From Methanoculleus sp. (lineage in GTDB: Archaea > Halobacteriota > Methanomicrobia > Methanomicrobiales > Methanoculleaceae), in contig NZ_JAJGBK010000032.1 of the NCBI RefSeq assembly GCF_020696975.1, forward strand, positions 1 to 64,000: DNA of 64,000 bases, given 5' to 3'. The notes beneath the pieces are model-generated. The model searched no databases. It saw nothing but the letters and a program-made list of their open reading frames with translations, and was not told the DNA's origin. The number at the start of each line of letters is the position of its first letter. Within the stretch, counting starts at the first letter, position 1. This document shows, piece by piece, positions 22,581-26,359 of this stretch. The position numbers and the translations under genes are program-made.

Positions 22581-22955
22581 TCAGGTCGCCGGGCCGGCGG
22601 GGGCATCCTCATCCTCGGGACACCCCGCTTCCTCCCGGCGGCCGCACCCGGCGATCCGGATCGTCTTCCCGTGGACCAGGGCGTCCGCGACCTTTGCCCG
22701 CGCCTCGTGGAGGTCGCGCCAGAGGGTCTTTCGGGAGACGCCGAGGGCGACGGCGGCCTCCTCCTGCTCGAGCCCCTGGAGGTCGACGAGCCGCAGGGCC
22801 TCCACCTCCTCGGGAAGGATGACGACGACCGCATCAGGCCTCCCGCAGAGGGGGCCGAAACAGCGGAACGCCTCCGGATCCCCGATCACCCGGCGGACCC
22901 GGGGCCGGCCCCGCCCGCGGCGGCAACGTCCCTCGCCGGGCTCGCTTGCATTCAT
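22581..22955 (-). CDS. DUF134 predicted DNA-binding protein
   Basis: 124 residues from ATG 22955 (MNASEPGEGRC). The family pattern is RGRPRVRRVI near the N-terminus, then CFGPLCG, then a sigma70-region-4-like helix-turn-helix: LEQEEAAVALGVSRKTLWRDL. DUF134 proteins commonly sit beside NifX-domain and DUF5320 genes in anaerobes, suggesting they regulate Fe-S/metal genes. Here it follows a DUF5320 gene and a palindrome shared with the NifX operon 6.8 kb away. The long Asp/Glu/Cys-containing tail is poorly conserved. Confidence 0.8.
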   Translation of the reverse strand: MNASEPGEGRCRRGRGRPRVRRVIGDPEAFRCFGPLCGRPDAVVVILPEEVEALRLVDLQGLEQEEAAVALGVSRKTLWRDLHEARAKVADALVHGKTIRIAGCGRREEAGCPEDEDAPAGPAT

Positions 22956-23018
22956 GCTATCATCCTGGAGAGAGATCCGTCTCGCGTGCAGATAGTGCCT
23001 TCGCTCCGGCACCGGCCG

Positions 23019-23503: not shown

Positions 23504-23844
23504 TCATTCCACTTCCCGGATCATCGTTTTGACCGTATCTTCAAGGGGTCCGAGCCCCGTCTGGATGATATCCCAGAGGATTATCGGTTTCACCGAATAA
23601 TAAGAGTGGACACCGATATCCCGGAGCCCGGCGAACTTTCGCCACTCAATCTCCGGGGATCTGCGGTGATATCGGCAGGGATCTGCTTCACCGCTTCCCC
23701 GATGGTGATAAACCTGAGCACGACGGCATCAAGGCACATGGGATCGCCCGCAAACTCCTCAAACGTCCGGCCCCCTGCATAGGAGCGGATGGAGGCGATG
23801 GCATCACGGATATCCTCCAGATAGAGGAGGAGATCCCCAGGCAT
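23504..23844 (-). pseudogene. Frameshifted hepT (HEPN toxin, DUF86)
   Basis: From ATG 23844 the frame encodes MPGDLLLYLEDIRDAIASI and continues to AVKQIPADITADP, then leaves frame. Shifting at the GGGG tract 23655-23658 (one base missing) restores PEIEWRKFAGLRDIGVHSYY and a C-terminus ending at a TGA at 23504. The restored part carries the HEPN RNase motif R-x4-H-x-Y (RDIGVHSY), so the break removes the active site. It overlaps the MNT gene upstream by 41 bases. Confidence 0.7.
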
Positions 23845-24124
23845 AGACGACCTCACCCAGGACGGTCTCCCGGATCCGGGGCTTCAGGGTATCGGTGATG
23901 ACGAGGTCCGTCCTTCGTCCCAGGAGGTCCTCAAGGTAGAGTTTGAGGCCCATAAAGTGATCAAAGGTCTCCTCCCCCTCCCGGAACTCCACCAGGATAT
24001 CGATGTCGCTTGCCCCGGTGGCCTCGCCACGCACCACAGATCCGAAGATGCCGATACGGGCTACACCGTAGCGCTCCCGGATGGTGTGAAGGTTCTGCTG
24101 GATCTGGATGAGTGGATATACCAT
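23804..24124 (-). CDS. MNT-type nucleotidyltransferase antitoxin (MntA-like)
   Basis: 106 residues from ATG 24124 (MVYPLIQIQQNLHTI). The motif GIFGSVVRGEATGASDIDIL gives GSx10DxD and RTDLVITDTL the third acid. It is the first gene of a three-part module with the frameshifted hepT and the start-less antitoxin-like gene. The enzyme itself looks intact. Confidence 0.8.
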   Translation of the reverse strand: MVYPLIQIQQNLHTIRERYGVARIGIFGSVVRGEATGASDIDILVEFREGEETFDHFMGLKLYLEDLLGRRTDLVITDTLKPRIRETVLGEVVYAWGSPPLSGGYP

Positions 24125-24273
24125 TATTCTGTGATGCTGCATTTATCCACTTATATCCTCCGGCGCCAGGCAGAAAACGCCCGGATGAACCTTCATACGA
24201 CATCATGTATCAGAGTATGAACGTCAGTTTGATGCTGCCCGGGTCTGCTCGGGTCAACCCGGCGTCTGCCCAA

Positions 24274-24327
24274 TGGTCTAGCGGTATGACGTCGCCTATT
24301 CTGGCGACGTTACAACCAGTTAGACCA
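24274..24327. repeat. Inverted repeat of two tRNA 5'-half-like arms
   Basis: Left arm TGGTCTAGC-GGTATGACGTCGCC (24274-24296) and right arm GGCGACGTTACAACCAGTTAGACCA (24303-24327) are complementary over almost their whole length around a six-base loop, TATTCT. Each arm, read inward, has the order of a tRNA 5' half: U8/G9-like TG, D-arm GTCTAGC..GG, and the 5' anticodon stem. The innermost eight pairs (ACGTCGCC/GGCGACGT) are perfect. No T-arm or 3' acceptor follows, so it is not a complete tRNA on either strand. Confidence 0.7.
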
Positions 24328-24595
24328 TGGCGCTCGCATACTAGAATTGCCACATACAAGGTCCAATAGCCTTTCCAGGCCGATCCGGCCGTGTTCCCGG
24401 TTTCATGTTAGGCTCGTGCACCCTCGCCTATCCATGGCGGCGTCATAACCAGCTAGACCATATAAACTCACGCCCGAAATTGGCCGTATAAGCGGTCCGA
24501 TAGTCATTCCATCCAAGTTCTGGCCGGGCCCTCGATCCACGTGCCCACGTCATCTCTCCTCGCCTTACCAGGCGACGTCATAACCAGCTAGACCA
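24303..24595 (-). repeat. Array of tRNA-half-like elements with ~134-bp period
   Basis: Three copies of GGCGACGTCATAACCAGCTAG-type sequence on the plus strand (24303-24327, 24436-24460, 24571-24595), starting 133 and 135 bases apart. On the minus strand each reads TGGTCTAGCTGGTTATGAC, then a CGCC...GGCG hairpin with a changing 6-7 base loop (TGGTAA, ATGGATA, AGAATA). The right-most copy also has a 5' acceptor-like GGGCTCG. The spacers of the first two units are diverged but alignable (GGTCCAATAGCC versus GGTCCGATAGTC). The 588-bp gap 24125-24712 has no protein gene. It looks most like a tRNA-Val-type 5' half. Confidence 0.65.
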
Positions 24596-24679
24596 CGAGC
24601 CCATTACGCCCCACCGGGGGCACCAGCCCCACCCACTGAACTATTCGGAATCTCCGAACAGTTGCCCGGCCGGGGGACA

Positions 24680-24690
24680 ACCTATATCCC
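24680..24690 (+). promoter_or_regulatory. TATA box for a probably leaderless SulP transcript
   Basis: ACCTATATCCC lies about 25-33 bases before ATG 24713. That spacing would place transcription start at or next to the ATG, as is common for leaderless archaeal mRNAs. Confidence 0.45.
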
Positions 24691-24712: not shown

Positions 24713-26359
24713 ATGCCCGCCGGTGGACTGCAGGTGAAAAGCCTCCCCGCCGACATCGTCGCCGGGACGACCACCGCCCTCGTCGGCATCCCCCAGGTGA
24801 TGGGGTTCGCCCTCGTCGCCGGGATCAACCCCGTCTACGGCCTCTACACCGCCGCGTTCTCGACGGCGATCGCCGCGTTCCTCACCGGCTCCACCTACCT
24901 CAAGGTGATGCTCTCAAACGTCCTCGCGGTCTCGATCTACTCGGTCCTCGCCCCGGTCCCGGAGGCCGACGTCCCCGCCACCCTCTTTGTCCTGACACTC
25001 CTCGTCGGCATCTTCCAGCTCGGCTTCGGGCTCATCAAGGCGGGCAGCCTGACCCGGTTCATATCGAACGCCGTCCTCACGGGGTTCGTCACCGGAGCAG
25101 CGCTCCTCATCGTCCTCGGCCAGCTCGGCAACCTCACCGGCTACCAGCTCCCGCGGGAGGCGATCCAGATCCTTGCCGTGCCCGACCTCATCCTCCACGC
25201 GGGCGAGATCCGGCCCGGGGCGCTCGCGGTCGGCCTCCTCACCATCGCCCTTGCCCTCGTCTTCCGGCGGGTGGAGCGCCTCCGCCCCGTCGCCCTCCTC
25301 CTCCCGGTCATCATCGCCACCCTCCTCGTCCGGATCGCGTTCCCAAAGGTCGCGATCGTGGGCAGCATCGCCGCGATCCCCGCCGGCCTCCCGGCCCCCG
25401 TCATCCCCGACATCACCCTCGCACCCGGGCTCCTGGTTCCGGCGCTTGCGCTCGCCATCATCGGGCTCGTGATGGCCGTCGGGGTCACGGAGACGACCCC
25501 CGAGCCCGACGGGACCGTCGCCGACGTGAACCGGGACTTTGCCGGGCAGGGGGCGACGAACATCCTCGCAAGCTTCCTCCAGTCCGCCCCGGCGGCCGGC
25601 TCCCTCTCCGCGACGGCGTTGAACGTCGCCGCGGGGGCAAAGACCCGGGCAGCGAACCTCATATCGGGCGTCATCGTCGGGGCGGTCATCCTCGTCGCCG
25701 GGCCGCTCGCGGAACTGATCCCGCTCCCGGCGCTTGCCGGCATCCTGATCCTCATCGGGATAGAACTCATCTACCAGCCCCGCGAGATCACCTGCATCTG
25801 GAAGTACTCCCGCCCGGGACGCTGGGGGATGATCGCCACCTTCATCTCCACCCAGGTCCTCCCGCTCCAGTACAGCATCTACATCGGCGTCCTCCTCTCG
25901 CTCGCCATCTACCTCGTCACCTCAACCCGGGAGGCGACCGTCGTCCGCCTCGTCCCGGTCGGCGAGTGGATGTTCCGGGAAGAACCGGCGCCCGACCGGC
26001 TCCCCGCCGGCGAGATCACCATCCTCTCGATCTCCGGCAGCGTCTACTTCGCCACCCTCCGGGCGATCGAACGGTCGCTCCCGTCCCCGGAGGGGGCCAA
26101 CGGCGCCGTCGTCATCCTCACCCTCCGGGGGAGGAGCGAGACCGGCATCGGGCTCTTCCGGATGCTGGAGCGCTACGCCCGGAGGGTCCGGGGCCACAAC
26201 GGCCGGCTCATCCTCGCCGAGGTCGAACCCCGGCTTCTTGCGGGCCTCGAAGAGATCGGAGCAGCCGCGATCATCGGCCACAATAACATATTCCTCGCGA
26301 CCCCGATCATCGGGGAGTCGCTCCAGGAGGCGATCCGGGCAGGAGAGGCCGGAGCGTGA
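24713..26359 (+). CDS. SulP family anion transporter with STAS domain
   Basis: 548 residues from ATG 24713, which suits a leaderless transcript; an upstream TTG/ATG extension would include the promoter. About 11-12 membrane helices: the N-terminal LPADIVAGTTTALVGIPQVMGFAL and PVYGLYTAAFSTAIAAFLTGS (SulP signature), then a C-terminal cytoplasmic STAS domain from about residue 430 (ITILSISGSVYFATLRAIE). SulP proteins move sulfate, bicarbonate, molybdate or other oxyanions; the substrate is unknown. It lies directly downstream of the tRNA-half repeats. Confidence 0.9.
   Translation: MPAGGLQVKSLPADIVAGTTTALVGIPQVMGFALVAGINPVYGLYTAAFSTAIAAFLTGSTYLKVMLSNVLAVSIYSVLAPVPEADVPATLFVLTLLVGIFQLGFGLIKAGSLTRFISNAVLTGFVTGAALLIVLGQLGNLTGYQLPREAIQILAVPDLILHAGEIRPGALAVGLLTIALALVFRRVERLRPVALLLPVIIATLLVRIAFPKVAIVGSIAAIPAGLPAPVIPDITLAPGLLVPALALAIIGLVMAVGVTETTPEPDGTVADVNRDFAGQGATNILASFLQSAPAAGSLSATALNVAAGAKTRAANLISGVIVGAVILVAGPLAELIPLPALAGILILIGIELIYQPREITCIWKYSRPGRWGMIATFISTQVLPLQYSIYIGVLLSLAIYLVTSTREATVVRLVPVGEWMFREEPAPDRLPAGEITILSISGSVYFATLRAIERSLPSPEGANGAVVILTLRGRSETGIGLFRMLERYARRVRGHNGRLILAEVEPRLLAGLEEIGAAAIIGHNNIFLATPIIGESLQEAIRAGEAGA

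Follow-up and report, generated by a model that had tools for sequence, protein, structure and literature searches.

How did tRNA half-like elements come to form a tandem array beside a transporter gene in Methanoculleus, and what maintains them there? In the window, that is, the whole 64,000-nucleotide stretch analyzed here, a repeat search recovered a 25-nt core as one family of three minus-strand copies (24303-24327, 24436-24460, and 24571-24595), with unit starts 133 and 135 bp apart, as a sequence-only reading of this DNA had described. The changing loops that it reported were read in the sequence as claimed (Table 1), and the spacers, considered partly alignable, are indeed related, with the alignment of the E3-E2 and E2-E1 spacers scoring 45, compared with 18 ± 7 for shuffles (0 of 2,000 as high); the sequence following E1 bore no relation to the spacers in alignments against shuffles. 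That reading had overlooked the inverted repeat of E1, the 5′ acceptor strand in E3, the location upstream of the SulP gene, and the hairpins in other families. The 33-nt tRNA identity of E3 spans the acceptor 5′ strand GGGCTCG, the D-arm, and the 5′ anticodon stem. The right arm is mostly unpaired in both E2 and E3.

Table 1. Array units, spacers, and neighboring features in the window.
Feature	Positions	Strand	Description
E3, tRNA-identical part	24570..24602	-	33-nt stretch shared without mismatch with the 5′ end of the window genome's tRNA-Val genes; BLAST, 100% to G000:C9 and G000:C10
E3 unit	24542..24595	-	hairpin model R1, 28.2 bits, similar to what genuine tRNA-Val genes score; loop TGGTAA
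E2 unit	24409..24460	-	R1, 36.2 bits; loop ATGGATA; right arm mostly unpaired
E1 unit	24274..24327	-	R1, 68.4 bits, high by construction because E1 is one of the 17 sequences from which the model was built; near-complete 54-nt inverted repeat (arm alignment); loop AGAATA
E3-E2 spacer	24463..24556	-	86% identical to G005; noise level against distant clades
E2-E1 spacer	24330..24421	-	related to the E3-E2 spacer
SulP-family transporter gene	24713..26359	+	divergent from the units; family name from sequence reading
TATA-like box	24682..24687	+	read directly from the sequence, ~28 bp upstream of the SulP start codon; relatives share this arrangement
Dyad AACTATTCGG-N5-CCGAACAGTT	24639..24663	.	between array and SulP promoter; in many relatives, with changes; sequence comparison
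MntA-like nucleotidyltransferase gene (PF01909)	23804..24142	-	nearest gene following the array, with which it is not co-conserved
HepT-like (HEPN) partner gene	23590..23856	-	short, 88 aa; of the 120 model positions, only 1-51 matched
DUF134 gene (PF02001)	22581..23012	-	across the array from SulP in most relatives

The distance between the TATA-like box and the start codon suggests a leaderless SulP transcript, in which case the array would fall outside the SulP 5′ UTR. On the other side of the array, the HepT-like gene looks truncated or frameshifted, with a 117-aa relative at L088 7804-8157, and a second MntA-like nucleotidyltransferase gene (PF01909; 22125-22445) has no recognized HepT partner. 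As a separate observation, a conserved palindrome around ACATATGTGT, perhaps an operator, lies just before a small 'MPGFDGTGPAG' gene in L048, L050, L051, and L054.

To which molecule the units owe their sequence is clear. Allowing up to three mismatches, the core occurs at six sites in the window genome, namely, the three units and three tRNA-Val genes, with no control matches, which is far beyond chance; the same pattern search yielded no further tRNA-Val fragment elsewhere in this genome. By sequence, the units are tRNA-Val-derived, the core of E3 being identical to the window genome's own tRNA-Val genes. The absence of a T-arm and 3′ acceptor, asserted in the sequence-only reading, was borne out: ARAGORN predicted no tRNA at the array and the Rfam tRNA model gave nothing at E ≤ 1, so that a complete cloverleaf with T-arm and acceptor pairing was not encountered, and no Rfam family matched the array at or above its gathering score.

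Across the genus, units are found directly upstream of SulP, on the DUF134-facing side, in about 22 of 35 genomes, a count of our own that includes genomes with a cut or incomplete SulP gene. In relatives, most units are inverted repeats of ~55 nt with a loop of 6-7 nt, and the array period is 132-134 bp in seven genomes and 126, 141, and 151 bp in three more. The array is best explained as an element typical of the genus and passed on vertically. It has been lost in G019 and reduced to a remnant in G017, both of which keep SulP, and is missing or a remnant in G001, G002, G014, and G025, where SulP has other neighbors; thus, the array is dispensable. Conversely, two units are located near DUF134 in G011, and units are also present in G030, with no SulP detected in either genome. 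In single-unit genomes, the remaining unit combines the left flank of unit 1 with the unit-2 loop and right flank, a structure that, judged from the sequences, fits deletion by recombination between the repeats.

The evolutionary behavior of the arms differs from that of the DNA between them. Unit-1 arms are on average identical at 21.98 of 25 positions between genomes (88%), a value that is inflated, since the units were located by similarity and such a search favors conserved ones, compared with the 66-79% expected from the divergence of SulP fourfold sites (0.70-0.80 identical between the window and relatives). The spacers are only 0.48-0.62 identical between distant clades, against a noise floor of 0.51 ± 0.035, and despite this drift, periods of 132-135 bp recur in three clades. 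The two arms also differ from each other: conservation is 0.86 in the left, tRNA-like arm but 0.76 in the right one, and their similarities to tRNA-Val are 0.92 and 0.79, respectively. Among the D-loop columns, G11, T13, and T14 are invariant, T14 being unpaired in the hairpin. In G032, G013, and G027, 2-5 nt separate the arms from the tRNA-Val sequence, so that the arms have not simply been overwritten by the tRNA genes; furthermore, arms are only slightly more alike within a genome (22.9/25) than between genomes (about 21.8/25), indicating that homogenization between units is weak.

These patterns bear on the proposal in the sequence-only reading that the units are decayed tRNAs. Decay holds as a statement of origin, because the sequence is that of the tRNA-Val 5′ part, but is weak as a full account, considering that no intact tRNA-Val was present at this locus in the relatives examined, the arms are kept while the spacers are not, and most units are inverted repeats. 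Comparison with relatives for intact tRNAs and for unconserved spacing did not reduce the array to mere decay: the hairpin units were kept while the intervening DNA changed completely, which points to more than a randomly broken tRNA. Among the readings put forward earlier, a structured family built from tRNA halves appears to fit the comparative data best.

We searched for signs that the units act as RNA from a particular strand. In 14 of 15 loci, folding is more stable for the minus strand; however, this preference reflects composition and was rejected as evidence, the two strands having similar z-scores when compared with dinucleotide shuffles. Likewise, the ratio of G.U to A.C pairs (37:18) is indistinguishable from what left-arm composition alone would give (about 33:22 by our estimate). 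Paired cells amount to 89.3% in the unit alignment, compared with 25-43% when slid, although neither this value nor covariation exceeds that of shuffles. Overall, folding z-scores, G.U counts, and covariation gave no strand-specific RNA signal.

Beyond the genus, an order-level model search identified hairpins in three genomes of other Methanomicrobiales families (G047, G042, and G046), a match in G131 being discarded as a real tRNA-Val. A noncoding block of 440 bp is common to G046 and G030, which represent different families, at 89% identity (L052 2660-3120 in G030; L131 in G046); it holds hairpins of a tRNA-Val half and a tRNA-Asp-like half, the latter identified by reading. The loop of the Asp-like half reads TGACA, the inverse of TGTCA. 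According to PADLOC, the hairpins neighbor BREX proteins BrxA, BrxB, and BrxC in G046 and Druantia DruE with a type IV restriction enzyme in G047 (defense islands L154 and L155), as well as type I restriction proteins in G042 and G030. Because the G047 and G042 occurrences look orthologous and G030 and G046 have the block in common, these represent at most two independent places, and the link between hairpins and defense is only suggestive. A general tie to the pairing of XRE/M78 and PIN-like genes in G047 and G046 was considered and rejected, since among 30 PIN-like loci the hairpin lies just downstream in G047 only. A pattern scan of named genomes gave matches only in Methanoculleus, M. chikugoensis and M. 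sediminis among them, and in unclassified Methanomicrobiales or Euryarchaeota MAGs. Searches of phages and plasmids and a pattern scan of IMG/VR gave no match; no report of such an element was found in the literature searched, the coverage of which left most subscription papers outside.

What, then, keeps the array in place? Our leading answer, held tentatively, is that it might be a hairpin element specific to this lineage, derived from tRNA-Val and maintained by selection, possibly in the role of a tRNA-mimicking RNA. A 5′ fragment of tRNA-Val would have been captured, folding back of its anticodon stem-loop would have led to copying of the 5′ half into its complement, and tandem duplication of the resulting units would have followed. 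As an RNA hairpin, a unit could present a tRNA-like 5′ half, consisting of the D-arm and anticodon arm, to a tRNA-binding protein or nuclease that recognizes it, and might thereby serve as a decoy, a processing signal, or a regulator. Arms that have changed less than fourfold sites predict, the better-conserved left arm, the invariant D-loop columns, and the stable location speak for this reading; the lack of a strand-specific RNA signal, the dispensability of the array, the similarity-based detection of the arms, and the mostly unpaired right arm in E2 and E3 speak against it. A much broader version, in which the hairpins are a new archaeal RNA family mimicking tRNA 5′ halves (Val here, Asp-like in G030 and G046), arranged in tandem, horizontally transferred in defense islands, and serving to decoy or sense enzymes that cleave tRNAs, is speculative and improbable as it stands.

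A serious rival, only a little less probable, is that a captured tRNA-Val fragment turned palindromic through template switching and persists by recombination between repeats as an inert relic devoid of function. Unit number appears to have been altered by recombination between arms (G004, G006, and G034), and loop inversions typical of foldback events are seen in G009 (TTACCAA vs. TTGGTAA) and G022, where the Val-GAC loop TTGACAT is present as its reverse complement, ATGTCAA; losses of the array in several relatives and the lack of a covariation excess are also in line with an inert sequence. However, the arms of such a relic would not be expected to change less than fourfold sites while the spacers separating these very units diverge to the noise level, foldback should equalize the two arms, yet the left one is clearly better conserved, and homogenization within genomes is weak. 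Selection on the units is therefore favored over an inert, recombining relic, by a small margin.

It is unlikely that the units are past or present DNA-level recombination or integration sites of the anticodon-arm attachment type, which would attract variable genes, as in the repeated integration at a tRNA gene suggested by the sequence-only reading. Archaeal tyrosine recombinases use anticodon-arm sites, and an anticodon loop with a flanking palindromic stem resembles their core sites (PMC8371274); moreover, gene content between the array and DUF134 varies among species, and the outlying copies in G046, G047, G042, and G030 reside in defense islands. Nevertheless, the single PF00589 tyrosine recombinase detected in the window genome is encoded on contig C22 and the array is on C7, in none of the 13 genomes checked does a tyrosine recombinase gene adjoin the array or an outlying hairpin, and the window genome contains no displaced tRNA-Val fragment elsewhere. 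In addition, the unit loops are all different and lack the match to the anticodon loops of the window genome's tRNA-Val genes that an overlap region for integration would require.

Still less probable is a DNA operator, that is, palindromes bound by a regulator of SulP or of the DUF134-side genes, with the tRNA resemblance reflecting origin only: the units are close to the SulP promoter, and DUF134, the usual far-side neighbor, has an HTH-like region (Sigma70_r4 match), but a distance of 90-400 bp separates the window units from the TATA-like box, unit number varies, and G011 and G030 carry units without a detected SulP. Least probable of all are tandem tRNA genes that decayed independently, given that, notwithstanding the tRNA-Val 5′ identity and the resemblance of the G011 units to tRNA-Val as far as the variable loop, no intact tRNA-Val is located at the locus in any relative examined, and the 5′ extent and inverted-repeat form are common to several species.

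Retention of a tRNA half as a repeated hairpin at a single site throughout a genus, if this is what the array represents, would be unusual for a tRNA fragment. tRNA fragments of this kind are usually treated as integration scars. The locus is compact and offers a testable setting for the question of whether archaea use tRNA mimics in regulation or defense.

Several known systems resemble the array in part. With tRNA-Val itself (RF00005), the units share nucleotides 1-31 and anticodon-stem pairing, but they have neither T-arm nor 3′ acceptor, their loop is changed, and tRNA models do not recognize them. Integron attC arrays, in which imperfect palindromes follow one another in tandem and one arm carries unpaired bases, seem similar in these respects, whereas here there is no recombinase beside the array, there are no gene cassettes, and the spacers are shorter than 100 bp and contain no genes. 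Integration-remnant tRNA fragments are likewise partial tRNA genes ending at the anticodon arm, but the array has mismatched loops and no integrase nearby, and is tandem, inverted-repeat, and fixed in place. Finally, REP and BIME palindromes are, like the array, intergenic, imperfect, and variable in copy number; matches in the window genome, however, comprise the array and the three tRNA-Val genes only, without dispersed REP-like copies, and the array mostly occupies one locus per genome and is derived from tRNA-Val.
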